A DNA stretch of 64,000 nucleotides from positions 248,001-312,000 of the forward strand of contig NZ_JABBWV010000006.1 in NCBI RefSeq assembly GCF_012999535.1, given 5' to 3'. Source of the stretch: Microbispora sp. H11081 (GTDB lineage: Bacteria > Actinomycetota > Actinomycetes > Streptosporangiales > Streptosporangiaceae). Below, piece by piece: positions 28,842 to 58,376 of the stretch. Numbering within the stretch: the first letter of the stretch is position 1; the number at the start of each line of letters is the position of its first letter. Under the pieces are notes generated by a model that saw only the letters and a program-made list of their open reading frames with translations, was not told where the DNA came from and searched no databases. The position numbers were made by a program, and so were the translations under genes.

Positions 28842-30227
28842 TCATCCACCCGCGAGCGCGTCGAGCGCGGCGGTGAAGGCCTCGGCGGGAGGACGCACCA
28901 GACCCGCTCCCACCTGCCCTGTTCCCGCGATCCTGCCGGCGATCCCGGTGTTGACGACGGGCAGCGAACCGGTCCTGGCCACGAGCGCCACGTCGATGCC
29001 GGCCGGCGTGCCGCGGAAGCCCAGCCCGGGGATCTGGTACGCAGGGTGCTCGGCCATCGTGATCTCGTACATCGTCGTGGTGGCCGCGACGGCGTCGGAC
29101 ACCTCGCCGCCGACGAACCGGACGATCGCGGGGGCCGCCGCCATCGCGAAGCCGCCCAGGCCGGTGGTCTCGGTGATCGTGGAGTCGCCGATGTCGGCGT
29201 TGGCGTCGTCCGGGCCGTACCCCCCGAGGTAGAGGCCGTCGGGCACCCCGGCGGGGCCGGTGAACCACCGGTCGCCGAGACCCGACACCTGTATTCCGAA
29301 ATCCGTTCCATTGCGCGCCATGGCGACGACCAGGCTCGATCCCGGCACGTCGCGGGCCGCGTCGGCGCTGACTTTCGCCGCGGCCATTCCCGCGTTCAGG
29401 AAGAAATGATCATTTCCATTGATGAAACGCAGCACCTCGGCCGCGTGGTCAGGGGCCGCCTCCACGATCGCCGGCGCGATCTCGCGCACCAGCAGGGAGG
29501 TCGCCGCGCGGTTGCGGTTGTGCAGTTCGTCGCCCATCTGCAGCGCCTGGGCGATGAGCGTGCGCAGGTCGAGCGGGCCGCAGCGCTCCAGCGCCGCCGC
29601 AAGCACCGGCCCGAGCACCTCGCCCATCCAGCGCAGCCGCTCGATCACCTCGGGTCCGTACGCGCCGTAGCGCAGGACCTTGCCCAGCCCCTCGTTCAGC
29701 GAGCAGTACGCCGTGCCGCCGTGCTCGGCGTCGGTCACCTCCAGCATCCACATGGAAGGGCTGACGACGCCCGCCATGGGGCCGACCGTGCGGTGGTGGT
29801 GGCAGGAGTCGAGGCCGATCCCCGCGCCGGAGGCCAGGCGGCGCTCCGCCTCCTCGGGGGTGCCGGCGAGGCCCTCGAACAGCATCGCCCCGGCGAGCGC
29901 GCCCCGCATCGGGCCCGAGGCGCGTTCCCAGGTGATCGGCGGACCGGCGTGGAGGAACTCCCCGGCCCGCAGGCCAAGGACCGCGTGCGCCGGGCGCACG
30001 CCGGTCAGCATGGGACGCGCCGCCAGCATCCTGCCGACGGCGGTGGCGTTGGCGCTCTCGCGGCGGGGGTCGGCGAGCACCCGGGCGAGGGCGGCGGCGG
30101 TGCCCGGCAGCGGCGGACGCCAGTCGACCTCGCACCGCGGCACGGCCTGGAGGTCCAGCGCCTCGCCCAGCACCTGCGCCCCCACGGTGATCACCCGCGG
30201 CTCGCCGTACAGCATGGAAAGGGTCAT
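28842..30227 (-). CDS. DUF1116 / YlbE-like subunit of the FdrA-type carbamoyltransferase
   Basis: This 461-aa protein belongs to the DUF1116 family, whose E. coli member YlbE (AllG) sits in the allantoin-utilisation region with FdrA and YlbF. As I recall, those three proteins together were assigned as oxamate carbamoyltransferase (oxalurate + Pi to oxamate + carbamoyl phosphate). Characteristic stretches include GAGIGLDSCHHHRTVGPMAGVVSPSMWM, FINGNDHFFLNAGMAAAK, LVVAMARNGTDFGIQVSG and GVPDGLYLGGYGPDDANADIGDSTITET. The start ATG has a GGAG site. It is the third gene of a three-gene operon (DUF2877, fdrA, DUF1116). The true acceptor/donor here may differ from oxalurate, given the distant barbiturase-family neighbour. 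Confidence 0.88.
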   Translation of the reverse strand: MTLSMLYGEPRVITVGAQVLGEALDLQAVPRCEVDWRPPLPGTAAALARVLADPRRESANATAVGRMLAARPMLTGVRPAHAVLGLRAGEFLHAGPPITWERASGPMRGALAGAMLFEGLAGTPEEAERRLASGAGIGLDSCHHHRTVGPMAGVVSPSMWMLEVTDAEHGGTAYCSLNEGLGKVLRYGAYGPEVIERLRWMGEVLGPVLAAALERCGPLDLRTLIAQALQMGDELHNRNRAATSLLVREIAPAIVEAAPDHAAEVLRFINGNDHFFLNAGMAAAKVSADAARDVPGSSLVVAMARNGTDFGIQVSGLGDRWFTGPAGVPDGLYLGGYGPDDANADIGDSTITETTGLGGFAMAAAPAIVRFVGGEVSDAVAATTTMYEITMAEHPAYQIPGLGFRGTPAGIDVALVARTGSLPVVNTGIAGRIAGTGQVGAGLVRPPAEAFTAALDALAGG

Positions 30228-30261
30228 CTGGCTCCGATCCAGGTCGGCGCGGCCCGGCCCG

Positions 30262-31659
30262 TCACCCGCCCGCCAGGAGGCGGGCGTGCCTGGCGGCCGC
30301 GGCGTTGGAGGTGAAGACCGCCGCTCCGGCCTCGTTGAGCCGGGCGGCCTGGGCGCGCAGCCCCTGCGGGTCGCCGTCGGTGCCGACGACGGCGACGACC
30401 ACGTCCACGCCCCTGGCCACGGCCTCGCGGACGGCGGGCGCGAGCGAGGAGGAGGGGTCGGGGTCGGCGCCGTGCCCGAGCACGACGTCCATCAGCACGA
30501 CGCCGGACGCGACGCCGCGCAGCGCGTCAAGGCGCAGCGCCGGGTCGATCATCGGATGGGCCCTGCCGCGGGTGTAGGAGTCGTCGCCGAAGTCGGTGAA
30601 CTCCCCGTCGCCGGCGACCAGGGCGGCTTCCGCGCACAGCGTGCCGCCCGCGTAGAGGCCCCGCAGCGGCCCGCGCGGGGCCGCCTCGTCCGCCGCGTCC
30701 TGCCGGGCGGGCGGCGCGGGCGGCGCGGGCGGGGCGGGCCAGGAGGGCCACTCGGGCACGTCGCGGCCGAGCGCGCGCAGCACCTTCTCCGCGGCGGTGG
30801 TCAGGTCGTCCTGCCCGGGCCCGAGCAGCGCGGCGACGACCGGCGTCGCCAGGTCGAGGTCCCGTACGGCACGGGCCACCTCGGGAGCGGGCGGCTTGGA
30901 GACCAGCACGATCAGCTCGGTCGCGGGGTCCTCGTCGAGCGCGCGCAGCGCCTGCACGGCCGAGCGCCCGCCGACCTCGGCGGACAGGTCCCTGCCGCCC
31001 ACGCCGAGCACGTGGGACACGCCGACGCCGGCCAGGTCGAGCAGGCTCGTCACCTGCTGCGCGCCCGTGCCCGAAGCGGCCACGACGCCGACCGGCCCGG
31101 GGCGCAGGACGTTGGCGAAGCCCAGGCCCGCTCCGCCGACGACCGCGGTGCCGCAGTCGGGGCCCATCACGAGCACGCCCCTGGCTGCGGCGAGGTCCTT
31201 GAGCAGGATCTCCTGCTCCACCGGCACGTTGTCGCTGAAGATCATCACGGAGAGCCCGGCCTCCACGGCGTCGAGCGCCTCGGCGAAGGCGTGCTCGCCG
31301 GGCACGCTCACCAGCGCCAGCGTCGCCTCGAAGCCCCGCGCCGCCGACCGCGTGGTGCGCGGCGGCGCCACGTCCCCCGTACCGCTCGCCTGCGCCCGCG
31401 CGGCGAGCTGCCGGCCGAGTTCGGCGGCGGCGCCCTCCAGGACCGCGGGGGAGGCGGCCCGCACCGCCACCAGCAGGTCTCCCGGGGTCGCGGGCGGCAC
31501 CGCGAAGCCGAGATCGCGGGCGAGCGCCGTGTTGAGCTCCGTGGCCATCGCGACGACGGCGACGGTCACCCCCGGCAGATCGGTGATCGCCCGGCTCACC
31601 CGCATCAGCGTCACCGAGTCGCGGTAGACCCCGGGGCGCACCTCGACCAGGTCGTTCAA
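30262..31659 (-). CDS. fdrA: FdrA-family protein (succinyl-CoA-synthetase-like carbamoyltransferase subunit)
   Basis: FdrA proteins are built like the two subunits of succinyl-CoA synthetase fused in tandem. Here residues about 1-270 hold the CoA-binding-like domain (MIFSDNVPVEQEILLKDLA, LVMGPDCGTAVVGGAGLGFAN, VAASGTGAQQVTSLLD) and the remainder the ligase-like domain (FGDDSYTRGRAHPMIDPALRLDAL). The TTG at 31659 is chosen because GGGAGGG is correctly spaced and the codon overlaps the upstream stop as TTGA. At 465 aa it is slightly shorter than E. coli FdrA (about 555 aa), mainly through a short proline-rich linker. In the E. coli system it works with the YlbE and YlbF products in carbamoyl transfer to phosphate. 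Confidence 0.9.
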   Translation of the reverse strand: MNDLVEVRPGVYRDSVTLMRVSRAITDLPGVTVAVVAMATELNTALARDLGFAVPPATPGDLLVAVRAASPAVLEGAAAELGRQLAARAQASGTGDVAPPRTTRSAARGFEATLALVSVPGEHAFAEALDAVEAGLSVMIFSDNVPVEQEILLKDLAAARGVLVMGPDCGTAVVGGAGLGFANVLRPGPVGVVAASGTGAQQVTSLLDLAGVGVSHVLGVGGRDLSAEVGGRSAVQALRALDEDPATELIVLVSKPPAPEVARAVRDLDLATPVVAALLGPGQDDLTTAAEKVLRALGRDVPEWPSWPAPPAPPAPPARQDAADEAAPRGPLRGLYAGGTLCAEAALVAGDGEFTDFGDDSYTRGRAHPMIDPALRLDALRGVASGVVLMDVVLGHGADPDPSSSLAPAVREAVARGVDVVVAVVGTDGDPQGLRAQAARLNEAGAAVFTSNAAAARHARLLAGG

Positions 31660-32561
31660 CGTCCCTCCCGTAGGGCGAGGACCGCGGACAGGCCGATCTG
31701 CACGCCCCACGCCAGGTCGGCGCCCGAGGTGTGGCCGAGGCGGAGCAGGCGGCGCACGGCCGGTTCGAGTGGCTGGTGCCCGGCCACGCCGCGCAGCACC
31801 GCCGTGACCTCGGGGCTCGCCTCGCCCCTCGCGGCGCAGTGCAGCAGGGTGGCCGAGACGGGCGTGGTCCTGCTGCGGGCGTCGTAGGTGACCGCGGCGG
31901 CCAGCCAGTCGGCCAGCCAGACGGCGCGCGGCACGTCCGCCGCCGCGCCGAGACGCCGCAGCGCGACCAGCAGGCCGGCGAGCATGTCGTCGCCGCTCGG
32001 GGTCAGTCCGGGGCCGAGGCCGATCAGCCGCTCGGCCGCCGTGATGCTCTCCAGCAGCGAGCCCGCCAGGCAGCCGCGCTCCAGCAGGGCGGGGGCGCCG
32101 TCCGGGTCCAGCCCCGGCCGCCGGGGCGAGCCCGCGCGGGCACGGCCGAGCAGACCGGACGCGGCCTTGAGCCTGACAGGGTCGGCGGAGGCGAGCGGGG
32201 GAGCGGGGTCCCACCAGCGGCGCACGCGGATCGACAGGCCGCCGACCTCGACGGAGCCGTCCCCGACCCAGGCGTCGTCGCCCGCGGACACCCCTTCGAC
32301 GGGCCCGGCGAGCACCACGGAGTTGGGCAGCCGGGTCGCCTCCCCCGTCACCACGGCCACGACGTACGGCTCGGTCTCGCTCCTGATCTCCAGGTAGAGC
32401 GCGAGGGGAAAGGCCGCGAGCACCCGTGCCGGGCGGCGGGGCGCCTCCAGGGCGGGCCGTACGGCCACACTCGCGGCGCCGCCCACGTAGGCGGGGTCCG
32501 CGGGGGGTCGGGCCGCGGGAGCGGCCGCCCGCCGCGCTCTCGGGCGCGTGCCAACAGTCAC
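31656..32561 (-). CDS. DUF2877 / YlbF-like third subunit of the FdrA system
   Basis: This 301-aa protein carries the DUF2877 signature (LIGLGPGLTPSGDDMLAGLLVALRRLG), the family of E. coli YlbF (AllH). It completes the FdrA-YlbE-YlbF set needed for the carbamoyltransferase. The N-terminus (about 45 residues) is Ala/Arg/Pro-rich and unlike the family core. The GTG start at 32561 has GGAGG four bases upstream. It is the first gene of the operon, overlaps fdrA by four bases, and is divergent from the PucR gene across a 288-base region with repeated GCCAAC sites. Confidence 0.88.
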   Translation of the reverse strand: MTVGTRPRARRAAAPAARPPADPAYVGGAASVAVRPALEAPRRPARVLAAFPLALYLEIRSETEPYVVAVVTGEATRLPNSVVLAGPVEGVSAGDDAWVGDGSVEVGGLSIRVRRWWDPAPPLASADPVRLKAASGLLGRARAGSPRRPGLDPDGAPALLERGCLAGSLLESITAAERLIGLGPGLTPSGDDMLAGLLVALRRLGAAADVPRAVWLADWLAAAVTYDARSRTTPVSATLLHCAARGEASPEVTAVLRGVAGHQPLEPAVRRLLRLGHTSGADLAWGVQIGLSAVLALREGR

Positions 32562-32653: not shown

Positions 32654-32849
32654 TCTTCCTGACAGGACCGGTGCTCGGGCACAATCGGCGTGAGACGTCC
32701 CCGGAGCGAGCCCGACGCCCTGAGCGCAGTGGTCCGCGAGGTACGGGCGGCCCGCGTGGCGAGCGAGGAGCGGTGAGCGACCGATGACACCGGGACGTCG
32801 TGACGCCAGTTCGGAGAGCACTGTCCAGCGAGCAGGGACCGGAGACGGA

Positions 32850-34451
32850 ATGCACAACGACCCGGCCCCGCCGACGATGCGCCTGGCGAGCACCGGAACG
32901 ATCCTCCACGGCGTGTCGGTGGGCGAGGTGCTCGGCGTCTCGACGCTGGCGGACGCCCGCCTGATCGCCGGGCGGGGCGGCCTCGACCGCATCGTGCAGC
33001 GGCTCAACGTGATGGAGGTGCCCGACATCCTCGCCTGGGTGAAGCCGCACGAGTTGCTGCTCACCACGGGCTACCCGTTGCGCAACACGCCGCAGTCGCT
33101 CGACCGGCTCGTGGCCGACCTGGACGAGCGCGGCCTGGCCGCTCTGGCGATCAAGCTCGGCCGCTACCTGGACGAGCTCCCGGGGGAGATGGTGGAGCAG
33201 GCCGACCGGCTGGGCTTCCCGCTGATCCTGCTGCCCAACCACGTCGGCTTCGACGACATCCTCAACCAGGTGCTCACCGACATCCTCAACCGGCAGGCGG
33301 CAATACTCGCGCGCACGGAGGAGGCGCACCGGGCGCTCGTGCAGATCGTGCTCGCCGGCGGCGGGATGCGAGAGGTCACGGCGGAGGTGGCCGGGCTGCT
33401 CAAGGTGGCCGTGGGGGCGACCGACGCAGCCGGCCACTTCCTCGCCACGGCGGGGGAGCCCGCCCAGGTGGCCCGGCTGCGGGAGGCCGACGCGGCCCTC
33501 GCGCGGTCGCAGGCGGTCCCGCGGGGCGGCGACGGCCACCACGCCGCCGTGCCGATCGTCGCGGGCGGGCACCACCACGGGAGGATCTCGGTCTACAGCG
33601 CCCACGGCACGCTGACCCCCAGCGACGTCGGAATCCTGGAGCGCGCCGCGACCGTCGCCGCCCTGGTGATCACCAAGCAGGAGGCGGTCACCGCCGTCGA
33701 GAGCAAGTACCGCGCCGACTTCCTGCGGGACGTGCTCACCGGCAGAGGCGGGCTGCGGGTGGCCGAGCGCGCCCAGGCGTTCGGCTGGGACCTGGAGCGC
33801 CCGGTGAGCGTGCTGGTCGCCGAGATCGACCCGGAAGCCGAGGAACGGCCGGTCCAGGACCGCATGCTCGCGGCCTGGCAGGCGTCGGTGCGCAAGCACG
33901 ATCCGCGCGGCGCGGTCGCGGGCTACTCGCACGAGGTCGTGGCCATCGTCGGGGAGGCGGCCGACCCCGCCAGGGTGGCCAGGGACGCGCTCGCCGCCGT
34001 GTCCGACGGCACGTTCTCCACCGGCCTCAGCCGGGTCGCCGCCGGCGCCGACGCCCTGCCCGGCGCGTACGGCCAGGCGCTGAAGGCCGCCCGGGTGGGC
34101 CGCCAGCTCCACGGGGCGGGCGCGGTCGCCCACTTCGACGAGCTGGGGGTCTACCGGCTGCTCTCGCTGGTGAACGACACCGACGAGCTGCACGCCTTCG
34201 TCCGGGAGACCCTCGGCCCGCTGGCGGGCGACGACGACGCCGAGAACGCCGACCTGCGGCGCACCCTCCAGGCGCTGCTGGAGACCAACCTCAACGTCGC
34301 GGAGACCGCGCGACGGCTGCACTTCCACTACAACACGCTGCGCTACCGGATCGGGAAGCTGGAGCGCATGCTGGGCAACTTCACCGAGGACGCGCACCTG
34401 CGGCTCAACCTCACCCTCGCCCTGCACGTGCTGCGCATGAGGGGCATCTAG
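32850..34451 (+). CDS. PucR-family transcriptional regulator
   Basis: This 533-aa regulator has the PucR layout. An N-terminal purine-catabolism (PucR) domain spans about residues 15-140 (TILHGVSVGEVLGVSTLADARLIAG...PHELLLTTGYPLRN...GFPLILLP). A central GAF/GGDEF-like sensory region follows, and the C-terminal helix-turn-helix (LLETNLNVAETARRLHFHYNTLRYRIGKLERML) completes it. PucR proteins control purine or pyrimidine breakdown genes, often sensing a pathway intermediate. The ATG at 32850 follows GGAGACGGA; an in-frame ATG at 32784 is an alternative. Position suggests it controls the divergent FdrA operon and possibly the downstream permease and molybdenum hydroxylase genes. Confidence 0.92.
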   Translation: MHNDPAPPTMRLASTGTILHGVSVGEVLGVSTLADARLIAGRGGLDRIVQRLNVMEVPDILAWVKPHELLLTTGYPLRNTPQSLDRLVADLDERGLAALAIKLGRYLDELPGEMVEQADRLGFPLILLPNHVGFDDILNQVLTDILNRQAAILARTEEAHRALVQIVLAGGGMREVTAEVAGLLKVAVGATDAAGHFLATAGEPAQVARLREADAALARSQAVPRGGDGHHAAVPIVAGGHHHGRISVYSAHGTLTPSDVGILERAATVAALVITKQEAVTAVESKYRADFLRDVLTGRGGLRVAERAQAFGWDLERPVSVLVAEIDPEAEERPVQDRMLAAWQASVRKHDPRGAVAGYSHEVVAIVGEAADPARVARDALAAVSDGTFSTGLSRVAAGADALPGAYGQALKAARVGRQLHGAGAVAHFDELGVYRLLSLVNDTDELHAFVRETLGPLAGDDDAENADLRRTLQALLETNLNVAETARRLHFHYNTLRYRIGKLERMLGNFTEDAHLRLNLTLALHVLRMRGI

Positions 34452-36329: not shown

Positions 36330-37202
36330 GTGAAGCCGCCCCCGTTCGACTACCACGGCCCGGTCACCCTCGGCGAGGCGCTGGACGTCCTCGCCGAGGC
36401 CGGGCCGGACGGGAAGGTGCTGGCGGGCGGCCAGAGCCTGATCCCGCTGCTCAACATGCGCCTGGCCGCGCCCGCGCACATCGTCGACGTCAACCGCGTG
36501 CCCGGCCTGGACGGGATCGAGGCCGGGCAGGACGGCGTACGCGTCGGGGCCCTGGCCAGGCACGCCGCCGTGGAGCGCTCGCCTGAGGCCGCCGCGCTGC
36601 CGCTGCTGCGCCAGGCGCTGCGACTGGTCGCCCACCCCGTGATCCGCAACCGCGGCACGGTGGTGGGCAGCCTCGTGCACGCCGACCCGTCCGCCGAGAT
36701 GCCGGCCGTGCTCGCCCTGCTCGGCGGGTCCGTACGGCTGGCAGCCAGGGGCGGCGAGCGGGAGGTGGCCGCCGCGGACTTCTTCACAGGACCGATGGAG
36801 TCGGCGCTGCGGCCGGGCGAACTGGCCGTGTCCGCGTTCTTCCCCGCGCTGCCGGGAAGGTCGGGCACGGCCTTCCACGAGGTGTCCAGGCGGCACGGCG
36901 ACTACGCGGTGGCCGGGGTGGCCGCCGCCGTCACGCTGGACGAGGACCTCAGGGTCACCGCCGCCCGCGTCGCCTGCGTGAGCGTGGGACCGGTCCCGGT
37001 GGTCGTGGACGTGACCACGGCGTGCGGCCCGCGCCCGGCGGGCTCGGCCGGCTGGGAGGCCGCGGCGGCGGCCGTACGGGACCGGATCGAGCCGGAGGGC
37101 GACATCCACGCGACCGCGGATTACCGGCGGCACCTAACCGGGGTGCTCGCCGTGCGGGCGCTGCGGGACGCCGCCGCGGCGGCCCACGGGGAGGAAGCGT
37201 GA
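36330..37202 (+). CDS. Molybdenum hydroxylase FAD-binding (medium) subunit
   Basis: This is the FAD subunit (290 aa, CoxM/XdhB-like) of a xanthine-dehydrogenase-family molybdenum hydroxylase. The flavin motifs are LAGGQSLIPLLNMRLAAPAHIVDVNRV and VAHPVIRNRGTVVGSLVHADPSAEMPAVLALLGG, followed by the C-terminal CO_deh_flav domain (FHEVSRRHGDYAVAGVAAAV). It passes electrons from the [2Fe-2S] centres to the external acceptor. The start is GTG. Its stop overlaps the [2Fe-2S] subunit start (GTGA). The gene order FAD, FeS, Mo is a common one for aerobic carbon-monoxide-dehydrogenase-like hydroxylases. Confidence 0.9.
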   Translation: MKPPPFDYHGPVTLGEALDVLAEAGPDGKVLAGGQSLIPLLNMRLAAPAHIVDVNRVPGLDGIEAGQDGVRVGALARHAAVERSPEAAALPLLRQALRLVAHPVIRNRGTVVGSLVHADPSAEMPAVLALLGGSVRLAARGGEREVAAADFFTGPMESALRPGELAVSAFFPALPGRSGTAFHEVSRRHGDYAVAGVAAAVTLDEDLRVTAARVACVSVGPVPVVVDVTTACGPRPAGSAGWEAAAAAVRDRIEPEGDIHATADYRRHLTGVLAVRALRDAAAAAHGEEA

Positions 37203-37723
37203 ACGAGACGCGCCATCGGGTGACCTTGAAGGTCAACGGGGTCGTGCGGGAGGCGACGGTGCCGGGGCGGCGGCTGCTGTCCGACTGCCTGCGTCACGAC
37301 CTCGGCCTCACCGGCACCCACGTGGGCTGCGAGCATGGCGTCTGCGGCGCCTGCACGGTGCTGCTGGACGGCGAGCCGGTCCGGTCGTGCCTGATGTTCG
37401 CCGTCACGGCGGACGGCCACGAGATCACTACGGTGGAGGGCCTGGCCCGCGGCGACGGCGAGCCGTCGCCGGTGCAGCGGGCCTTCTCCGAGTGCCACGC
37501 CCTGCAGTGCGGGTTCTGCACGCCGGGGTTCCTGTGCGCCGTGACCGCGTTCCTGCGGGACAACCCCGCCCCGTCGGAGGAGGAGGCGCTGGAGGCCGTG
37601 TCGGGCAACCTGTGCCGGTGCACCGGCTACCAGAACATCCTCAAGGCCGTCCACCGCGCCGCCGAGATCCAGGCCTCGGAGATCCAGGCGGCCGAGATCC
37701 AGGCGGAGGAGGGCGGGGCATGA
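37199..37723 (+). CDS. Molybdenum hydroxylase [2Fe-2S] (small) subunit
   Basis: This 174-aa subunit binds two [2Fe-2S] clusters. The plant-ferredoxin-type centre is CEHGVCGACTVLLDGEPVRSC, and the second centre is CGFCTPGF...CRCTGYQNI. It relays electrons from the molybdopterin to the FAD subunit. The GTG start overlaps the previous stop and has GGAGGAAG upstream. The last 20 residues are an unusual tail with three EIQA repeats (15-bp DNA period starting at 37664, 37679 and 37694), which is beyond the family norm. Its stop overlaps the ATG of the large subunit. Confidence 0.92.
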   Translation: MNETRHRVTLKVNGVVREATVPGRRLLSDCLRHDLGLTGTHVGCEHGVCGACTVLLDGEPVRSCLMFAVTADGHEITTVEGLARGDGEPSPVQRAFSECHALQCGFCTPGFLCAVTAFLRDNPAPSEEEALEAVSGNLCRCTGYQNILKAVHRAAEIQASEIQAAEIQAEEGGA

Positions 37724-40104
37724 CGACGAGGCTGTTCGGCGAGCCGGTCCAGCGGCGGGAGGACGCCAGGCTCGTCACCGGCGGCGGCCGCTACCTCGAC
37801 GACCTCGGCGCGGGCGCGCTGGCCGCCGCCTTCGTGCGGTCTCCGCACGCCCACGCGCGGATCCTCGACATCGACGTGTCGGCCGCCCTCGACGTGGAGG
37901 GCCTGGTCGCGATCTACACGTGGGAGGACCTGCCGGGCGCGCTGGCCGAACCGCTGCCGCTGCTGATCCCGCATCCCGCGCTCACCCACGGCCGCACGGC
38001 GTACCCGCTGGCGAAGGAGATCGTCAGGCACGTCGGGGAGCCGGTCGTCATGGTCGTCGCCCCCGACCGCTACCTCGCCGAGGACGCCTGCGCGCTGATC
38101 CGGGTCGACTACGAGATCCTCAAGCCGGTCGTGGGCATCGAGGAGGCCGCGGGCGGCGCCCACCTCGTGCACGAGGACGTGCCGGGCAACGTCGGCGCGC
38201 ACCTCGTCCAGGAGGTGCCCGGCCACGGCGGCGTGCCGGCGCGGGAGGCGGTCGACGCGGCCCCGCACCGGCTGGAGTTCCGCCTCGACATCGAGCGCAG
38301 CGCGTGCACCCCCCTGGAGGGGAAGGGCGTGTACGCCCGCTGGGACGCCGACGACGGCTCGTTGCGCATCTACTCCTCCACGCAGACCTCCACGAGCGTG
38401 CGGATGGCCATCGCGGCCAAGCTCGGGCTGCCGCTGCCCAAGGTGGAGGTCGTCGCGCCGGACGTCGGCGGCGGCTTCGGCGTCAAGATCGTCCACCCGT
38501 GGCCCGAGGAGATCCTCGTGCCGTGGGCGGCGCGGCTGCTGAACCGCGAGGTGAAGTGGACCGAGGACAGGCGCGAGCACTTCGTCTCCTCGTCGCACGA
38601 GCGCGGCCAGGTCCAGCGCGTGCGGGCCGGGTTCGACGACGACGGGCGCGTCCTCGGCCTGGAGGTGGAGATCCTGCACGACCACGGCGCCTACACGCCG
38701 TACGGGATCATCGTGCCGATCATCACCTCGACCCAGCTGCTCGGGCCGTACAAGGTGGGGGCCTACCGGGTCGAGTTCTCCTCGCTCTACACCAACACCG
38801 TGCAGGTCACGCCGTACCGGGGAGCGGGCCGCCCGCAGGGCGTGTTCTGCATGGAGCGGACGATGGACAAGATCGCCGCGTACCTCGGCAAGGACCGCAC
38901 CGAGGTCCGCGCGGCCAACTTCATCCAGCCCGGCGAGTTCCCGTACGACCAGGGCTTGATGTTCCAGGACGGGCGTCCGCTGATCTACGACAGCGGCGAC
39001 TACCCCGAGGCGCTGCGCATGCTCAAGGAGCTGATCGGCTGGGACTCCTTCGCGGAGGACAAGGCCCGCGCGGCGGCGGAGGGGCGCAGGATCGGCATCG
39101 GCGTCGGCTGTTACGTCGAGGGCACCGGCGTGGGCCCGTACGAGGGCGGGCACGTGCAGATCACCTCCGACGGCCGCGTGCACGTCTCGACCGGGCTCAC
39201 CTCGCAGGGGCAGGGGCACGAGACGGTGTTCGCGCAGATCGCCGCGACCGAACTCGGCGTGCCGATCGAGAAGGTGTCGGTGGTCACCGGCGACACCCGG
39301 CGCTTCGGCTACGCCGTGGGGACCTTCGCCTCACGGGCGGCCGTGATGAGCGGCAACGCGATCGCGCTCGCCTGCCGGAAGGTCAGGGAGAAGGCGCTGC
39401 GGATCGCGGCGGAGGCGCTGGAGGCCGATCCGCGCGACCTGGAGATCACCGACGGGACGGTCCACGTCGCGGGCGTGCCGTCGGCGTCGATCCCGCTGGC
39501 GACCGTCGCCGTGCTGTCCAACCCGCTGCGGTACGCCTTCGACGAGGAGGCCAGGCGGGCCACGCAGTTCGCCGGGGCCGGCTCCGACGACCGGCCGCCC
39601 GTGGCGGAGGGGGAGGAGCCGGGGCTGGAGGGCAGGGACTACTACTCGCCGGTCAGGTCCACCTTCGCGGCCGGCATGCACGCGGCGATCGTGGAGACCG
39701 ACCCCGACACCGCCGAGATCAGGATCCTGCGGTACGCCGTCGTCCACGACTGCGGGAAGCTGATCAACCCGATGATCGTCGAGGGGCAGATCCACGGCGG
39801 GGTCGCCCAGGGCGTCGGCGGGGCGCTGTACGAGAAGATGGCCTACGACGAGCACGGTCAGTTGCTGAACGCCTCGTTCATGGACTTCCTCATGCCGTAC
39901 GCCACGGAGGTGCCGCACATCGAGACGGCCCACCTGGAGACGCCCTCGCCGCTGAACCCGCTCGGGATCAAGGGCGCGGGGGAGGCCGGGGTGATCCCCG
40001 TCTCCGCCGTCATCGCCTCCGCGGTCGAGGACGCCGAGGGCATCGCGATCGACCGGATGCCCATCTCCCCGTCCGACCTCCACCACCTGCGCCTGGAGCG
40101 GTGA
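37720..40104 (+). CDS. Molybdenum hydroxylase large (molybdopterin-binding) subunit, form II CoxL-like
   Basis: This 794-aa subunit holds the molybdopterin cofactor. Family landmarks are the N-terminal GRYLDDLGAG, the cofactor loops DVGGGFGVKIVHPWPEE and SQGQGHETVFAQIAATE, and the catalytic base Glu in IKGAGEAG near the C-terminus. The active-site loop reads PYRGAGR (365-371), the form II motif, rather than the AYXCSFR loop of true CO dehydrogenase, so CO oxidation is unlikely. With a UraA-type permease upstream and a barbiturase-family protein in the window, ring hydroxylation of a pyrimidine such as uracil is an attractive but unproven role. Xanthine or another N-heterocycle remains possible. 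Confidence 0.9.
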   Translation: MTTRLFGEPVQRREDARLVTGGGRYLDDLGAGALAAAFVRSPHAHARILDIDVSAALDVEGLVAIYTWEDLPGALAEPLPLLIPHPALTHGRTAYPLAKEIVRHVGEPVVMVVAPDRYLAEDACALIRVDYEILKPVVGIEEAAGGAHLVHEDVPGNVGAHLVQEVPGHGGVPAREAVDAAPHRLEFRLDIERSACTPLEGKGVYARWDADDGSLRIYSSTQTSTSVRMAIAAKLGLPLPKVEVVAPDVGGGFGVKIVHPWPEEILVPWAARLLNREVKWTEDRREHFVSSSHERGQVQRVRAGFDDDGRVLGLEVEILHDHGAYTPYGIIVPIITSTQLLGPYKVGAYRVEFSSLYTNTVQVTPYRGAGRPQGVFCMERTMDKIAAYLGKDRTEVRAANFIQPGEFPYDQGLMFQDGRPLIYDSGDYPEALRMLKELIGWDSFAEDKARAAAEGRRIGIGVGCYVEGTGVGPYEGGHVQITSDGRVHVSTGLTSQGQGHETVFAQIAATELGVPIEKVSVVTGDTRRFGYAVGTFASRAAVMSGNAIALACRKVREKALRIAAEALEADPRDLEITDGTVHVAGVPSASIPLATVAVLSNPLRYAFDEEARRATQFAGAGSDDRPPVAEGEEPGLEGRDYYSPVRSTFAAGMHAAIVETDPDTAEIRILRYAVVHDCGKLINPMIVEGQIHGGVAQGVGGALYEKMAYDEHGQLLNASFMDFLMPYATEVPHIETAHLETPSPLNPLGIKGAGEAGVIPVSAVIASAVEDAEGIAIDRMPISPSDLHHLRLER

Positions 40105-40164: not shown

Positions 40165-41076
40165 TCAGAGGACCTGGGCGGTGAGGCGCTTGCGGAAGAC
40201 CCAGTAGGTCCAGGCCTGGTAGGCGATGACGCCCGGCAGGGCGAGCAGGCCGATCCAGGTGAGCACGGTCAGCGTGTAGGGCGCCGAGGCCGCTTCCGCC
40301 AGCGTCAGCCCGGGCAGCGGGGCCGCCCACAGCACCCCGAAGACGGTGGCCGTCGTCGCGGCGATCGACGTGGCGGTCGCGGTGAACGCCCAGCCCTCCC
40401 GGCGGCCCCAGACCAGCGTCACCCCGGCGGCCAGCGCCGACGCGGCGAGCAGCGCCGTCCCCAGGGTCCACGCCGGGCCCCTGCCCGGCACGGACGGCAG
40501 CGTGCCGATCGCGACCGGCAGCGCGCCGACGGCCGCGAGCAGAGCGGCCCTGCGGGCGCGGGCGCGGATCGCGCCGGTCGTCTTGAGCGCGAGGAACACC
40601 GCGCCGTGCAGCACGGCCACCGACAGCGACAGGGCTCCGCCGAGCACGGTCGCCAGCGCCGTGCCGAACACCAGGTGACCGAAGATCGCACCCCACAGGA
40701 ACGCCGGCAGCACGCTGCCCGTGACGATCCCGGCGTCGCACAGCGCGACCTCGCGCCTGGAGCGGACCTTGCCCCGCCACTCCAGGCCCACCCCGCGGAC
40801 GACCAGGCCGGTGATGACGAGGAAGACCGCCAGGTAGAAGCCGCTCAACAGGCCCGAGTACCACGCGGGGAAGGCGGCGAACATGGCGCCGATCGCGGTG
40901 ATGAGCCACACCTCGTTGCCGTCCCACACCGGCCCGATGGTGCCGAGCACCTGCCTGCGCTCGGCCTCCGACCGCGACAGCAGCGGCAGCAGCGCGCCCA
41001 CGCCGAAGTCGAACCCCTCCAGGACGAAGTAACCCGTCCAGAGGAACGCGATCACGATGAACCAGAAGGTCGTCAT
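40165..41076 (-). CDS. cydB: Cytochrome bd ubiquinol/menaquinol oxidase subunit II
   Basis: CydB is the second subunit of cytochrome bd, a quinol oxidase with high oxygen affinity. The 303-aa protein is highly hydrophobic, with about eight membrane segments and the conserved N-terminal FWFIVIAFLWTGYFVLEGFDFGVG and GPVWDGNEVWLITAIGAMFAAFPAWYS. The ATG follows GAGGAG and lies 11 bases after cydA. The cydDC assembly transporter genes usually found next to it in actinomycetes are not in this window. The operon converges on the molybdenum hydroxylase genes. Confidence 0.95.
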   Translation of the reverse strand: MTTFWFIVIAFLWTGYFVLEGFDFGVGALLPLLSRSEAERRQVLGTIGPVWDGNEVWLITAIGAMFAAFPAWYSGLLSGFYLAVFLVITGLVVRGVGLEWRGKVRSRREVALCDAGIVTGSVLPAFLWGAIFGHLVFGTALATVLGGALSLSVAVLHGAVFLALKTTGAIRARARRAALLAAVGALPVAIGTLPSVPGRGPAWTLGTALLAASALAAGVTLVWGRREGWAFTATATSIAATTATVFGVLWAAPLPGLTLAEAASAPYTLTVLTWIGLLALPGVIAYQAWTYWVFRKRLTAQVL

Positions 41077-41087
41077 CTCGTGACTCC

Positions 41088-42596
41088 TCAGTACATGAGC
41101 GTCGGCATGAGCCGCGTCTCGTCGGAGTGGTCGGGCGCCACGCCGGCGGGGTCCGTGACGGCGGGTGGCAGTTCTGGGCCGGCCTTGACGTGCCGCACCA
41201 GCAGCACGCCCTCGGCCACGGCGAGCACGCCGTACAGGACCGTGAAGACGGCCAGGGTGATCGCGACCTCGGTGAGCGAGACGCCGGGCGACACGCTGGC
41301 GGCGGTCATGAGCTCGCCCTGGACGGTCCACGGCTGACGGCCGATCTCGCTGAGCAGCCAGCCGGCGATGATCGCCATGGTGGGCAGCGGCAGCGCCAGC
41401 ACGCAGAGGCGGGCGAACCAGCCGGGCACCGGCCGGGCCGGGCCGCCGCGCCGGCGCCGGGGGCTCCGGGTCAGCCACAGGCCGAGCACGGACAGGCCCA
41501 CCGTGGCCATGCCGAAGCCGATCATGACGCGGAACGACCAGAAGACGACCGGCAGGTTCGGGGTGTAGTCGCCGGGCCCGAAGGTCTGCTCGTACCGCGC
41601 CTGGATGTCGTCGACGCCCTGGACCGTCGCGGCGGGGTCGTGCGCGGCGAGCAGGCTGAGCAGGCCGGGCACCTCGACGCCGGGCGCGATCGAGAACGGC
41701 GCGCCGGCGGTGTCGTGGCGCAGGCCCTCCGCCGCGGCGAGCTTCATCGGCTGCTGCTCGCGCAGGAGCTGGCCGGACAGGTCGCCGCTCCCGGCGACGA
41801 CGACCCCCGCGATCGCCGTCATGACGAGCGCGGCGCGCAGGCTGGTCCGCCACATGTCCGGCCCGCGGCGCACCGGCACGGTCACGTCCTGGGCGGCCCC
41901 GAGGCCGTTCACACGGTCGTGCCCGAGGCCGTTCCCGCGCCTGTTCTCGCGTCCGGGCAGCAGGCCGAGGCCGCGCTCGCGCAGGATGCGGTAGCCCGCG
42001 ACGGCGACCACGAAGCCGCCCGCCACGACGAACGAGGCGGCGACCACGTGCGGCACCTGGGCGAGGGCCGTCGAGTTGGTCAGCACCGCCCACAGGTCGG
42101 TCATCCTGGCCCTGCCGTCCACGACCTCGTAGCCGACCGGGTGCTTCATCCAGGCGTTGGCCGCGAGGATGAAGTACGCCGACAGGTTGGACCCGATGAC
42201 GGCGGCCCACAGGCAGGCGAGATGGACTCGCTTGGGCAGCCGGTCCCAGCCGAAGATCCACAGTCCGAGGAACGTCGACTCCAGGAAGAACGCGAGCAGC
42301 GCCTCCAGCGCCAGCGGCGCGCCGAACACGTCGCCGACGAAGGTCGAGTACTCACTCCAGTTCATCCCGAACTGGAACTCCTGGACGATGCCGGTCACGA
42401 CGCCCATGGCGAAGTTGATCAGAAAGAGCTTGCCGAAGAACTTCGTCAGCCTGAGGTAGTGCTCCTTGCCCGTACGCAGCCAGGCGGTCTGGAGCCCGGC
42501 GACGAAGACGCCCAGTCCGATCGTCAGGGGTACGAAGAGAAAGTGGTACACGGTGGTCACTCCGAACTGCCACCGTGCCAGGTCAAGCGCGTCCAT
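41088..42596 (-). CDS. cydA: Cytochrome bd quinol oxidase subunit I
   Basis: CydA carries the three haems of the bd oxidase and the quinol site. The 502-aa protein starts MDALDLARWQFGVTTVYHFLFVPLTIG with the first haem ligand region. It shows GIVQEFQFGMNWSEYS with the conserved acidic residues of the proton path, HVVAASFVVAGG with a haem b558 ligand, and the quinol-site motif GRQPWTVQGE. The Q loop is of the short type. The ATG at 42596 has GGGGGAG upstream; the frame is open to 42755 but that sequence is not family-like. Low oxygen or redox control is expected, but no convincing Rex site was found. Confidence 0.95.
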   Translation of the reverse strand: MDALDLARWQFGVTTVYHFLFVPLTIGLGVFVAGLQTAWLRTGKEHYLRLTKFFGKLFLINFAMGVVTGIVQEFQFGMNWSEYSTFVGDVFGAPLALEALLAFFLESTFLGLWIFGWDRLPKRVHLACLWAAVIGSNLSAYFILAANAWMKHPVGYEVVDGRARMTDLWAVLTNSTALAQVPHVVAASFVVAGGFVVAVAGYRILRERGLGLLPGRENRRGNGLGHDRVNGLGAAQDVTVPVRRGPDMWRTSLRAALVMTAIAGVVVAGSGDLSGQLLREQQPMKLAAAEGLRHDTAGAPFSIAPGVEVPGLLSLLAAHDPAATVQGVDDIQARYEQTFGPGDYTPNLPVVFWSFRVMIGFGMATVGLSVLGLWLTRSPRRRRGGPARPVPGWFARLCVLALPLPTMAIIAGWLLSEIGRQPWTVQGELMTAASVSPGVSLTEVAITLAVFTVLYGVLAVAEGVLLVRHVKAGPELPPAVTDPAGVAPDHSDETRLMPTLMY

Positions 42597-43117
42597 GTCT
42601 CCCCCATGACGGAGCCCCGCGGCTCGTAGCTCTATAGCCAGTAGTACTACAAGCTGTAGAGCATTAGGGCCTCGCGATGTGCGATCTTCGTCACAACCGT
42701 CCGGCAGGCCGCCCGGATCCCGGATCGCGGGGCCGTGACCCCGTTCTCGCGGCACCGGCGGGCGCGGCCGGATCGTCCCGGCGGCCGGGGACGTCTGTCC
42801 CGTCCCGCCCGGAGCGCCCCCTGCGGAGGCATGGAGTCAACAATGGCCGGATGTCGCCGTGCGGCGCGTCCGCCGCTCGGCTGATTCGCCCGTACGCCGC
42901 GCGGTTGAGAGCAACGGGCGGAAGCCACCTCGTCACCCGCGCCGGCGTGCCGTCCCGGGGTGTCCATCGGGCCCCGCCCGGCCGCGTGGCCGTACCCGGT
43001 TGCCGGCGTACGGCGCTCGCCGCGACACCTGCCGAGAGATCACGCCGCGCCGGGGCAGATATTGCCGTTCTCGCCGGACAGGTGGTTGTCTAGGGTGCTC
43101 GGCATCGGAGGTGGCTC
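42597..43117. other. 521-base region between divergent cydA and the CoxG-like gene
   Basis: No convincing gene is visible. Open frames on both strands lack ribosome-binding sites and show only Arg/Pro/Ala-rich shadow sequence. Close to cydA there is a 6-bp inverted repeat GCTCTA...TAGAGC inside the AT-rich stretch at about 42630-42662, and a weak TGTG-N10-TCACA element at 42678-42695. This segment presumably holds the cydAB promoter and, near its end, the promoter of the CoxG-like gene. Confidence 0.5.
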
Positions 43118-52494: not shown

Positions 52495-53286
52495 TTACGA
52501 TCTGTGGACTCCGAGCCGGCGGTGTTCGAGTGAGGGGAGGGTGGCGCGAGCGGCCTCGGTCCACGCCGCGTCGATCTCCGCGAGCAGCACGCCGGGGCCC
52601 GTGCCCAGGTCATGGCGGGCGACCCCCATCGGGTCGACGAGCATGCTGCGGCCGACACCGAACCCGTCCGGTATGGCGGGATTAGGCGCCTGGCCGACCG
52701 CGATGGTCCAGGTGGTGTTCTCGATGGCCCTCGCCCTGACGAGGGTCGTCCAGTGGTCCTCCTTCAGCGGTCCCGAGCCCCAGGCGGCGATCACCGCGAA
52801 CGTGTCCGCGCCCTGGTCGACCAGCGCGCGGGCCAACTCGGGGAACCGGACGTCGTAACAGGTGATCAGGCCGATCCGCAGCCCGGCCAGCTCCACGACC
52901 GCCGGCGCGTCCCCCGGCGCGACCAGTTTCGACTCCTTCGCGCCGAAGGAGTCGAACAGGTGGATCTTCCGGTAGGCCGCGGCGAGCGAGCCGTCCTCGC
53001 GCAGGGCGACCGCGGTGTTCCAGACCCTGCCGTCGGCGGCGGGCTCGAAGACGCCGGCGAGGATCGCGGTGCCGTGCTCGCGCGCGGCCTCGGCCAGGCC
53101 GGTGACGAACGGGCCGTCGAGCGGCTGGGCCGTCTCAAGGATCCCCGGGCCGAACCGGGTGAGCGTCGCTTCCGGGAACACGGCGAGGTCCGCTCCCCGT
53201 GCCCGCGCGAGGGCGTCACGCACGGTCGCGAGGTTGGTCTCCGGGTCGTGGGCGACGGGGATCTGGCACAGCGCTACGCGGGTCAC
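52495..53286 (-). CDS. Nitrilase-superfamily amidase (omega-amidase / Nit-like)
   Basis: This 263-aa carbon-nitrogen hydrolase has the full catalytic triad: Glu39 (VFPEATLTRF), Lys107 (YRKIHLFDSFG) and Cys143 (ITCYDVRFPEL). The closest functional families are omega-amidase (2-oxoglutaramate, succinamate) and deaminated-glutathione amidase (Nit1). It is a soluble cytoplasmic enzyme. The start lies 71 bases inside the 3' end of the upstream DUF418 gene, in a different frame. An aminotransferase of the glutamine-transaminase-like group is divergent nearby, the pairing expected for the glutaminase II route. Hydrolysis of malonamate-type amides is conceivable in this genomic setting. Confidence 0.88.
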   Translation of the reverse strand: MTRVALCQIPVAHDPETNLATVRDALARARGADLAVFPEATLTRFGPGILETAQPLDGPFVTGLAEAAREHGTAILAGVFEPAADGRVWNTAVALREDGSLAAAYRKIHLFDSFGAKESKLVAPGDAPAVVELAGLRIGLITCYDVRFPELARALVDQGADTFAVIAAWGSGPLKEDHWTTLVRARAIENTTWTIAVGQAPNPAIPDGFGVGRSMLVDPMGVARHDLGTGPGVLLAEIDAAWTEAARATLPSLEHRRLGVHRS

Positions 53287-55556: not shown

Positions 55557-55591
55557 ACGAAACCTCGTTCGTGACGAGGTGTTACCGGTCG

Positions 55592-55624: not shown

Positions 55625-55648
55625 GCGCCGTACCATGGAGGCATGGCC

Positions 55649-55846: not shown

Positions 55847-56220
55847 CCCGTTATCTGACGGTCGAGCAGGTTCTGGATCTGGCCGAACTGGCCGTCGAGG
55901 GCACACCCCAGCTTCGCGACCTCGGGCTGCTCGATTCGGCCGTGCATCGGCCTCAAGCCCGGATGTTCGACCAGGAGGCGTACCCCGACCTCCTCGCCAA
56001 GGCCGCCGCGTTGCTGCACTCACTGGCGATCAATCACCCGTTCATCGACGGCAACAAGCGAGTGGCCTGGGTCTCCACCGTGGTCTTCCTCGCCTACAAC
56101 GGTGTGGAAGTGGATACGGACGACGACTCGGCGTACGACCTGGTGATCGCGGTCGCGTCGGGAAAGCTCACGGAGGTCGACGAGATCGCGAGCGTGTTGC
56201 GCGGCTTCACCGCTTCTTGA
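55843..56220 (+). CDS. doc: Doc-type (Fic fold) toxin
   Basis: This 125-aa Fic-fold protein carries the Doc active-site motif HPFIDGNKR (residues 65-73). Doc toxins phosphorylate elongation factor Tu and stop translation; classical Fic AMP-transferases have a longer HxFxxGNGR. The short length, the aspartate in HPFxDGNKR and an upstream ribbon-helix-helix antitoxin identify a phd/doc-like addiction module. It starts with GTG overlapping the antitoxin stop. The module stands alone between an aminotransferase and carbamate kinase and may have been inserted there. Confidence 0.92.
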   Translation: MTRYLTVEQVLDLAELAVEGTPQLRDLGLLDSAVHRPQARMFDQEAYPDLLAKAAALLHSLAINHPFIDGNKRVAWVSTVVFLAYNGVEVDTDDDSAYDLVIAVASGKLTEVDEIASVLRGFTAS

Positions 56221-56334
56221 CCGTCCGGACCGTGCCGCGTGGTGCCGAGCTTGGGTGAAATGTGCCCATGGATGTGACAGGGGTGGGCGAGACTCGCCAA
56301 TGAAGCCCCGGGTAGAGCTGGATAGTTTCCGGAT

Positions 56335-57270
56335 GTGGGCGGACGCGTACTGATCGCACTGGGCGGCAACGCCATGACGGCTCCGGACGGGAGCGCGTCC
56401 CCGGCCGACCAGCACCGGGCGATCGGCGAGGCGATGCGCCACGTGGCGGCGCTCATCAGGGCCGGGCAGGAGGTGGTGCTCACCCACGGCAACGGCCCCC
56501 AGGTCGGCAACATCCTGCTGAAGAACCAGCTCGCCGCGCACGTCGTGCCGCCCGTCCCGCTGGACTGGTGCGTGGCGCAGACGCAGGGCACCATCGGCAC
56601 GCTCGTCATGAACGCCCTGCAACGCGAACTCGGGCACGCACGGGTCGCGACCGTGGTGACCCGCACGCTCGTCGACCCGGCGGACCCGGCGTTCCAGGAC
56701 CCCGTCAAGCCGATCGGGCGGTACTTCGGGCAGGACGAGGCGCGCCGCTTCGAGGGGCACGGCCAGGTCTGGCGGCGCTTCGAGCGCGGCTGGCGGAGGG
56801 TGGTCGCCTCGCCGCGGCCCGTGGAGATCCTGGACGCCCCCGCGGCCGTCGCGCTCATCGAGGCGGGATTCACCGTCGTCGCCGCCGGGGGCGGGGGAGT
56901 GCCGGTGGTGCGCGAGGCGGACGGGACGCTGACCGGCATCGAGGCCGTGATCGACAAGGACCTCGCCGCCGCCGCGCTGGCCGCCGCCGTCGGCGCCACC
57001 GACCTCGTGATCGCCACGGACGTGCCGAACGCCGTCGTGGGCTTCGGCACGCCCCACGCTCGCCCGATCGGGGAGATAGAGGTCGCCGCCCTGCGCGAGC
57101 TGCGGGCCGCGGGCCACTTCGCCGAGGGCAGCATGGGTCCCAAGATCGACGCCGCTCTGCGTTTCGCCGAGGCCGGCGGGGGACGGGCGGTGATCACCTC
57201 GCTGCGCCACATCGGTGCCGCGCTGTCAGGAAATGTCGGTACAAGGGTGTACAGAGGGGTGGAGGCATAG
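56335..57270 (+). CDS. arcC: Carbamate kinase
   Basis: Carbamate kinase (311 aa) converts carbamoyl phosphate and ADP to ATP, CO2 and ammonia. Family motifs are LIALGGNAM near the N-terminus, [52 protein letters not shown] and [14 protein letters not shown]. No arginine deiminase or ornithine carbamoyltransferase gene is nearby, so this is not an arginine-deiminase operon. Instead it overlaps by one base a cyanuric acid hydrolase/barbiturase-family gene, and an FdrA-type carbamoyltransferase operon lies 24 kb away. The starting GTG at 56335 lacks a strong ribosome-binding site. Confidence 0.94.
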
Positions 57271-58376
57271 TGCCGGATCCGATCGAGGTACGGAAGGTCC
57301 CCATCGAGAGCGTCACCGACGCCTCCGGGTTGGCGAAACTGATCGACGACGGCGTGATCGAGGCCGACCGCGTGCTTGCCGTGATCGGCAAGACCGAGGG
57401 CAACGGCGGCGTGAACGACTACACGCGGATCCTGGCCGACCGGGCCTTCCGCGAGGTGCTCATGGCCAGGGGCACCCGCACCGCCGAGGAGGTCGCGCAG
57501 GTCCCCCTGGTGTGGTCGGGCGGCACCGACGGCGTGCTCAGCCCGCATGCGACGATCTTCGCCACGATCGACCCGGCGACGGCCGTACGCACCGACGAGC
57601 CGCGGGTGAGCGTCGGCGTGGCGATGAGCGAGGTGATCCTCCCCGAGGACATCGGCAGGCCCGCGATGGTCGAGAAGGTGGCCGCCGGGGTGCGCGAGGC
57701 GATGAAGACCGCCGGTATCGACGACCCCGCCGACGTCCACTATGTGCAGACCAAGACGCCGCTGCTGACGCTGTCCACGATCACCGACGCGAAGGAACGC
57801 GGTCAGACGGTCGTCACCGAGGACACGCTGAAGTCGATGGACATCTCCAACTCCACCACGGCGCTCGGCATCGCGGTCGCGCTCGGGGAGATCGAGATGC
57901 CGTCGGCCGAGCGGATACACAAGGACCTGTCGCTCTACTCGTCGGTCGCCTCGTGCTCCAGCGGGGTCGAGCTCGACCGGGCCCAGATCGTCGTGGTGGG
58001 CAACGTGCGCGGGATCGGCGGGCGCTACCGCGCCGGCCACTCGGTCATGAAGGACGCCCTCGACACCGACGGGATCTGGGAGGCCATCCGCGGCGCGGGC
58101 GTTGACCTGCCCGAGCGCCCGCGCCCCGATGACCTCGGCGACCGGCTGGTCAACCTGTTCATCAAGTGCGAGGCCGACCCGTCGGGCCGCGTACGCGGGC
58201 GGCGCAACATCATGCTCGACGACTCCGACGTCCACTGGCACCGCCAGATCAAGGCGACCGTCGGCGGGGTGGCGGCGAGCGTGACCGGTGACCCGGCGGT
58301 GTTCGTCTCCGTGGCGGCGGTCCACCAGGGCCCCTCCGGCGGCGGCCCCGTCATCGCCATCGCCGACCTCGCGTGA
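57270..58376 (+). CDS. Cyanuric acid hydrolase / barbiturase family ring-opening amidohydrolase
   Basis: This 368-aa enzyme belongs to the AtzD/TrzD/barbiturase family, whose three homologous domains each contribute a Lys-Ser pair. All three pairs are visible: Lys41 (VIGKTEGNG) with Ser83 (VWSGGTDG), Lys162 (VQTKTPLL) with the serines near 228-231 ([10 protein letters not shown]), and Lys328 ([10 protein letters not shown]) with Ser356 (HQGPSGGGP). Members hydrolyse cyanuric acid or barbituric acid and I cannot tell which from sequence. GGAGG precedes the GTG start, which overlaps the carbamate kinase stop. The stop codon lies inside the first box of a 53-bp repeat array. Confidence 0.93.

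Follow-up and report, generated by a model that had tools for sequence, protein, structure and literature searches.

Known routes and the gene set of the window

Oxidative pyrimidine catabolism of the ureidomalonase type was worked out in Rhodococcus erythropolis. In this pathway, barbiturase is followed by ureidomalonase, which yields malonate and urea (PMC3758960). In E. coli, AllFGH, which together with the carbamate kinase AllK serves anaerobic allantoin use, converts oxalurate to oxamate and carbamoyl phosphate with phosphate and is reported to bear no similarity to the ATCase-type family (PMC11326118). Carbamoyl phosphate is also obtained from a ureide by the Rubrobacter ureidoglycine carbamoyltransferase, whose gene adjoins one for carbamate kinase (PMC4016543), but that enzyme is of the ATCase type. 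Here, we describe 64,000 nt of Microbispora sp. H11081 (GCF_012999535.1, contig NZ_JABBWV010000006.1, positions 248,001 to 312,000; the whole stretch is referred to as the window), in which a barbiturase gene is accompanied by genes for AllF, AllG, AllH and carbamate kinase. We consider it likely that these genes encode another, apparently undescribed branch of oxidative pyrimidine catabolism, one that proceeds by phosphorolysis, with AllFGH in the place of ureidomalonase. The proposal builds on direct observations, namely the identities of the genes, a residue signature, co-occurrence across genomes, cluster structure, clade structure and a gene swap.

With the ureidomalonase pathway the window shares the same barbiturase subfamily (75% identity to the protein of the complete genome G577), and PucR, a permease and, where the stretches extended that far, a similar Mo hydroxylase stand alongside; where that pathway releases urea and malonate (PMC3758960), the window has AllFGH and carbamate kinase and no match to the amidase that follows barbiturase in Rhodococcus-type genomes. 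Like E. coli, it encodes all three subunits and a carbamate kinase (identities to E. coli: AllG, 48%; AllF, 39%; AllH, 34% over 140 residues only; carbamate kinase, 41%). Unlike in E. coli, its AllG belongs to a separate clade, pyrimidine instead of allantoin genes are found alongside, and the predicted substrate would be longer by one CH2. The genes of the window are as follows:

28842-30227, minus strand: AllG (DUF1116), putative ureidomalonate transcarbamoylase subunit; PF06545, E = 1.5e-98
30262-~31641, minus strand: AllF (FdrA) subunit; NF004760, 363 bits (below the cut-off of 433); 3dmy, E = 7.8e-65
31656-32561, minus strand: AllH (DUF2877) subunit; PF11392, 99 bits (cut-off 25)
32784-34451, plus strand: PucR-type regulator, divergent from allHFG; PF07905, PF17853, PF13556
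34902-36284, plus strand: nucleobase permease (Xan_ur_permease); PF00860, E = 1.5e-73
36330-37202, plus strand: FAD subunit of the Mo hydroxylase (candidate uracil dehydrogenase); PF00941, PF03450
37199-37723, plus strand: Mo hydroxylase 2Fe-2S subunit, start inferred; PF01799 and PF00111 in frame 37022-37723
37720-40104, plus strand: Mo hydroxylase large subunit with loop PYRGAGR; PF20256, PF02738, PF01315; NF040766, 1523 bits
44595-46640, plus strand: HyuA, hydantoinase/oxoprolinase family; PF01968, PF05378
46630-48462, plus strand: HyuB; PF02538, E = 5.4e-136
52495-53286, minus strand: nitrilase-family C-N hydrolase, candidate malonamate amidase; PF00795, E = 9.6e-53
56335-57270, plus strand: carbamate kinase; NF009007, 297 bits (cut-off 266); TIGR00746, 341 bits (under the cut-off of 358)
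57270-58376, plus strand: barbiturase, Bar type of the AtzD family; PF09663, E = 2.5e-149

Profile matches placed every gene named in an earlier, sequence-only reading of this DNA where that reading had put it. The three AllFGH genes are contiguous (28842-32561); the AllF match lies under the NCBIfam cut-off, its nearest solved structure is 3dmy ('Protein fdrA'), and its start codon is uncertain, the frame being open further upstream of ~31641. Of the two curated carbamate kinase models matched, the protein passed the cut-off of NF009007 but not that of TIGR00746. The carbamate kinase gene had been described as fused by overlap to the AtzD-family gene; the overlap exists but amounts to one base, the stop codon TAG occupying 57268-57270 and the GTG start of barbiturase lying at 57270. 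The best NCBIfam match of the permease was RutG (TIGR03616), at 354 bits and under its cut-off. The HyuA-HyuB pair, absent from the sequence-only reading, belongs to the conserved gene set described below.

Barbiturase and its association with AllG

The best solved relative of the protein encoded at 57270-58376 was 5hwe, a barbiturase (E = 3e-177), with cyanuric acid hydrolases at 3e-96 or weaker. Between the G577 protein and 5hwe, only 2 of 366 aligned residues differ; the window protein shares 98% identity with Microbispora rosea barbiturase. Barbiturase and the AtzD/TrzD cyanuric acid hydrolases share the family PF09663 and differ at five positions (AtzD numbering), with Asn195, His321, Lys325, Val345 and Ser/Ala346 in barbiturase (group VI) and Arg195, Thr321, Arg325, Gly345 and Gly346 in AtzD (PMC3758960). 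The window protein carries N191, H321, K325, V345 and A346 (counted from 57279), i.e., the barbiturase signature at all five positions (N/H/K/V/A versus R/T/R/G/G), which, together with 5hwe as best chain, supports a barbiturase rather than a cyanuric acid hydrolase. Across all loci, with some genes counted twice, 152 of 175 AtzD-family rows had NHKV followed by A (98), S (34) or G (20), the last of which departs from the published Ser/Ala. RTRGG was found in 17 of the 175 rows, the window protein not among them, and 23 rows were without the barbiturase (Bar) signature. Separately, L051 (genome G181; L labels denote fetched stretches, with flanks of up to 10 kb in the 80-locus set introduced below, and G labels genomes) encodes a PF09663 member whose residues fit neither signature, Bar or AtzD, and whose neighbors are an amidase and a Mo hydroxylase (54% for the large subunit); it would be a further variant of the family.

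We searched a phylum sample of 396 genomes for PF09663 and AllG, which were present in 27 and 49 genomes, respectively. The PF09663 genomes comprised 22 of Bar type (68-76% identity outside the window's own genome) and 5 of other types (38-45%). AllG occurred in all 22 Bar genomes, compared with 27 of the 374 others (p = 7e-23) and none of the 5 non-Bar PF09663 genomes (p = 1.2e-5). Both p-values ignore shared ancestry, and weight was therefore put on the spread of the Bar genomes over seven families (one of which holds 11 of the 22) and on rearranged gene orders. A second sample, selected on barbiturase, came from the best 80 of 566 relatives listed in a scan of the GTDB genome collection, these 80 being all actinobacterial by their titles; whole-genome searches covered 49 genomes out of the 80 loci, mostly those with longer loci, and AllG was present in 49 of 49. 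In the phylum sample, barbiturase and AllG lay on one contig in 17 of 22 genomes and no more than 10 kb apart in 13. In the second sample, they shared a contig in 39 of 49 genomes at distances of 10.8-101 kb (median, 36.8 kb), a range that includes the 28 kb of the window, with AllG upstream of barbiturase on the opposite strand in 37 of these 39. On these counts of co-occurrence and linkage, we reject a chance neighborhood, and the survey of barbiturase with AllG came out in favor of the link that the sequence-only reading had drawn.

The same reading had noted that the two halves of the proposed pathway lie about 24 kb apart. This gap is explained by relatives in other actinobacterial families, outside the class of the window, in which the same gene set is compact, with barbiturase, permease, carbamate kinase, AllHFG, Mo hydroxylase, amidase, HyuAB and CoA transferase together. 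In G009, L039 together with L228 shows PucR divergent from barbiturase-permease-carbamate kinase-AllH-AllF-AllG, followed by a PAS-domain gene and then the three Mo hydroxylase genes in the order MoM-MoS-MoL-amidase-HyuA-HyuB-CoA transferase (MoL, large subunit); the cluster in G308 (L032 and L232) contains a carboxyltransferase in addition. Other arrangements include barbiturase-AllH-AllF-AllG-MoM-MoS-MoL in L034, whose large subunit is of another kind (30% identity) and whose fetched stretch shows no carbamate kinase; MoL-amidase, then carbamate kinase-AllH-AllF-AllG-HyuA-HyuB-CoA transferase in L240; MoM-MoS-MoL-HyuA-HyuB-barbiturase next to AllF and AllH in L165; and, in Embleya (L056), the full set minus the amidase-signature gene inside 41 kb. 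One gene set in such different orders argues for a functional link. The open reading frames of relatives were read gap by gap, since clustering of all frames gave mainly opposite-strand noise in this high-GC DNA. Some clusters hold further genes: an amidohydrolase in L032 (PF07969, Amidohydro_3) and, by likeness, in L035 and L037, which we read as cytosine-deaminase-like; a cytidine/deoxycytidylate deaminase family gene in L048; and an NMT1-type ABC transporter in L041. A compact barbiturase-AllFGH locus, L036, also contains (7005-9366) an amidohydrolase in two overlapping reading frames, which we read as dihydropyrimidinase-like, and a C-N hydrolase, hinting at a reductive pyrimidine route inside the same cluster.

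The AllG proteins of Bar genomes also form a group of their own. In a tree of 47 rows, all 24 rows from Bar genomes (the window, 21 other phylum-sample genomes, Embleya and G516) lay on one side of a branch with support of 97/93. This tree left out second copies and the AllG of seven non-Bar phylum genomes; with these added, an enlarged tree, in which the 27 non-Bar genomes with AllG from the phylum sample are all represented along with seven more Bar genomes of the second sample, placed 31 proteins of 31 Bar genomes on one side (support, 99/97; 41 rows, 10 of them double entries), with long branches flagged among the remaining rows. Second AllG copies of five Bar genomes (G386, G414, G423, G430 and G438) fell outside the clade, and in the four genomes with both copies in the tree, the clade member was the copy on the contig of barbiturase. 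E. coli AllG grouped with the actinobacterial L174 and L175, which have an AllD homologue alongside and come from genomes without barbiturase; the window AllG sits in a clade separate from that of the E. coli enzyme. It retains the conserved core: a comparison of 24 Bar-linked with three E. coli-type rows gave 109 invariant and 24 differing positions for AllG, and 71 invariant and 7 differing positions for AllF (again with three E. coli-type rows only), where the differing positions are otherwise fixed, i.e., at least 95% conserved in barbiturase rows. The system is most aptly described as a variant of oxidative pyrimidine breakdown that would employ a separate subfamily of a transcarbamoylase assigned only recently.

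Amidase and AllG in Rhodococcus-type genomes

By its G577 match, the family of genome G050 is most likely Mycobacteriaceae with Rhodococcus. A search of 221 of its genomes found PF09663 in 22, of which 13 were of Bar type and 9 of other types; in genus g5, PF09663 was present in 6 of 59 genomes, every one scoring 391-403 bits, i.e., non-Bar. AllG was not found in 12 of the 13 Bar genomes, and an amidase-signature gene lies directly after barbiturase in 11 of them. Of this swap amidase, which has relatives in L215-L227, the L216 copy (7790-9202) matches NF005686 and PF01425. The 11 amidase loci contain PucR (11/11), the permease (10/11), CoA transferase and carboxyltransferase (10/11) and the Mo large subunit (2/11), and HyuAB was seen in none of them within the fetched stretches. 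The sole AllG-bearing genome of the 13, G516, has the order HyuA-HyuB-CoA transferase-carboxyltransferase-carbamate kinase-barbiturase, with allHFG ~26 kb away. Conversely, the swap amidase was not next to barbiturase in any tested locus of AllG genomes, and the window holds no match to an amidase of the Rhodococcus type, nor to the operon type of the compact clusters. Because the amidase adjoins barbiturase where AllG is absent, and given the published ureidomalonase step, it is a good candidate for ureidomalonase, and AllFGH with carbamate kinase would be its replacement.

Proposed pathway and rival explanations

We infer all reactions in this organism, including the uracil dehydrogenase role and the steps after ring opening, from these genes. 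The permease would import uracil, perhaps also thymine; the three-subunit Mo hydroxylase would oxidize uracil to barbiturate, and barbiturase would open the ring to give ureidomalonate. By analogy with the conversion of oxalurate to oxamate in E. coli, AllF-AllG-AllH would then turn ureidomalonate and phosphate into malonamate and carbamoyl phosphate, and carbamate kinase would use carbamoyl phosphate and ADP to form ATP, ammonia and CO2. Hydrolysis of malonamate would probably fall to an amidase whose type varies from lineage to lineage, and malonate would reach acetyl-CoA via CoA transferase and the carboxyltransferase-like decarboxylase. The central idea of the sequence-only reading, one pyrimidine pathway with AllFGH replacing ureidomalonase, thereby gains strong indirect support from co-occurrence, clusters, the AllG clade and the amidase swap; its proposals on ATP saving and on the nitrilase fared less well, and HyuAB is left without a step.

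The Mo hydroxylase fits the class given to it by the sequence-only reading. All three genes are present, and the large subunit has the loop PYRGAGR, which we take to mark the form II type. The form I loop of aerobic carbon monoxide dehydrogenase, AYXCSFR, is absent from it. PYRGAGR was found in 20 of 21 large-subunit matches longer than 500 residues (duplicates and the window counted), the exception being the 30%-identical protein of L034. Because of this loop and the location in pyrimidine clusters, 'aerobic carbon-monoxide dehydrogenase large subunit' (group 5), as NF040766 is called, seems a misnomer for these proteins.

As to energy yield, the sequence-only reading had the pathway save one ATP. 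Among the 22 Bar genomes of the phylum sample, 17 have a carbamate kinase on their fetched stretches (hand count, window included); two of the five others are contigs of 3 and 8 kb. In genomes without a dedicated carbamate kinase (none was found in 3 of 49 second-sample genomes), carbamoyl phosphate might go to the synthesis of arginine or pyrimidines. HyuAB, also encoded in the cluster, belongs to a family with ATP-dependent members, so that the net gain of ATP is tentative.

For the malonamate step, the nitrilase at 52495-53286 (nearest solved chain, nitrilase homolog 2, 2w1v) had been suggested; the gene is there, but it shares this role with other candidates. Of the 8 compact clusters whose stretches cover the site, 7 have an amidase-signature gene downstream of MoL (L228-L233 and L240; not L239), with ~50-82% identity among these operon-type amidases. 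A nitrilase-family gene stands just after MoL in G085, G028 and Embleya (64-70% identity to the G085 copy), and a homologue of the window-type nitrilase is present on the fetched stretches of 36 of the 80 Bar loci. The window's own genome showed no clear counterpart of the operon-type amidase (best, 49% over half the length); a carboxyltransferase homologue (59%) lies on another of its contigs. Because oxamate is not metabolized any further in E. coli (PMC11326118), cells might also excrete malonamate instead of hydrolyzing it.

HyuAB is a conserved member of the gene set; its nearest NCBIfam models are caprolactamase subunits, matched under the cut-off. Close HyuB relatives (at least 73% identity, E 1e-180) occur in 25 of the 396 phylum-sample genomes, and 19 of the 22 Bar genomes have one. 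Three genomes without barbiturase (G013, G028 and G032) encode a PF04199 cyclase by allG (L166:5482-6279 and L248:14022-14879). This cyclase is a plausible substitute ring opener, and kynurenine formamidase and isatin hydrolase are among the solved chains that it matches weakly; the Mo large subunit of G028 is 73% identical to that of the window. In G135 and G157, no substitute ring opener was seen within the stretches read. We lean toward a broader version of the scheme, in which ureidomalonate has two interchangeable endings (amidase with urea, or AllFGH with carbamoyl phosphate and ATP), PF04199 can stand in for barbiturase, an amidase or a nitrilase takes the malonamate step, HyuAB is a constant partner of the phosphorolytic form, and AllFGH is a wider family of ureido-acid transcarbamoylases.

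Several observations weigh against the phosphorolytic pathway. The link between HyuB and AllG (24 of 25 genomes) is of about the same strength as that between barbiturase and AllG, and HyuB has no place in the scheme; five genomes, all drafts, have AllG and HyuB without barbiturase. AllG and barbiturase lie on different contigs in 5 of 22 (drafts of 80-590 contigs) and 10 of 49 genomes, and one of 13 non-Bar PF09663 genomes from a further family, G560, has AllG (210 bits). The swap is not perfectly clean, as in G516 an amidase with 42% identity to the swap enzyme persists downstream of AllG, and G555 is without AllG and also shows no amidase in its fetched stretch. Carbamate kinase adjoins barbiturase in 30 of the 49 second-sample genomes, is located elsewhere in 16, and was not found (E 1e-20) in 3. 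Finally, oxalurate could be the substrate of AllFGH here. Some of these points would fit a separate module, in which HyuAB opens a hydantoin-type ring with ATP and AllFGH cleaves the product, an unrelated amidase cleaves the barbiturase product, and a shared permease and regulator lead to clustering. The HyuB-AllG link speaks for it, as do the order MoM-MoS-MoL-HyuA-HyuB-AllF-AllG without barbiturase in L168, L170 and L171, whose AllG proteins are close to but outside the barbiturase clade, and the presence of amidases in several clusters. We regard it as unlikely nonetheless: AllG-less Bar genomes have the amidase and no HyuAB around barbiturase (11 of 13), the swap amidase adjoins barbiturase in none of the tested AllG-genome loci, barbiturase and AllG co-occur in 22 of 22 and 49 of 49 genomes, and G013, G028 and G032 possess a plausible ring opener in the cyclase.

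That AllFGH is the ordinary oxamic transcarbamylase of purine (allantoin) breakdown, near barbiturase by happenstance, would agree with its 109 AllG positions shared with the E. coli type and with PucR, classically a purine regulator. On tree and gene context we reject this identity and give the idea little credence: the Bar-linked clade stands apart from E. coli with second copies outside, the AllG proteins found beside AllD (L174 and L175) group with E. coli and come from genomes without barbiturase, and 152 Bar locus records (window, duplicates and short stretches included) contained no homologue of AllC, AllD, AllE or AllA (E 1e-15), the one allantoinase-like match being at 32% in L036. 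It is very improbable, too, that the ring opener is a cyanuric acid hydrolase with AllFGH acting on carboxybiuret or biuret. Such a role could draw on the match of the window protein to NF052395, 'cyanuric acid amidohydrolase' (476 bits; cut-off, 360), and on the report of allFGHK with biuH in nitrifiers (PMC12625717). Yet NF052395 also matches, at 477 bits, the near-copy of 5hwe (L216:9400-10497) that differs from it at 2 of 366 positions, and therefore does not discriminate; on this and on the five specificity residues, all of Bar type, we reject a cyanuric acid hydrolase, and a Mo hydroxylase would have no evident role upstream of cyanuric acid. The name of NF052395 looks wrong for barbiturase, and other barbiturases may be misnamed.

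If the phosphorolytic pathway holds, AllFGH would not be solely a purine enzyme, and aerobic actinobacteria would keep the carbamoyl-bond energy that others lose as urea. To our knowledge, the uracil dehydrogenase, ureidomalonase and malonamate amidase steps have no assigned gene, and candidates would now be at hand in the Mo hydroxylase, the Rhodococcus-type amidase beside barbiturase and the amidases discussed above for malonamate. A pyrimidine-derived compound would join the substrates of a transcarbamoylase for which the genes were linked to oxalurate as recently as 2024 (PMC11326118). Within the openly licensed literature (CC0, CC BY and CC BY-SA), which does not prove absence from print, we found no paper that pairs barbiturase with carbamate kinase, and excerpts on malonamate from the same literature described no conversion of ureidomalonate to malonamate and carbamoyl phosphate.

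Besides HyuA-HyuB, the region between the two halves of the window contains cydAB, a DSBA-like gene, a DUF418 gene, an aminotransferase and open reading frames without a Pfam match. The interval that separates the Mo hydroxylase from HyuA, in which some relatives have an amidase or nitrilase gene, contains the cytochrome bd oxidase genes here (40165-42755, minus strand).

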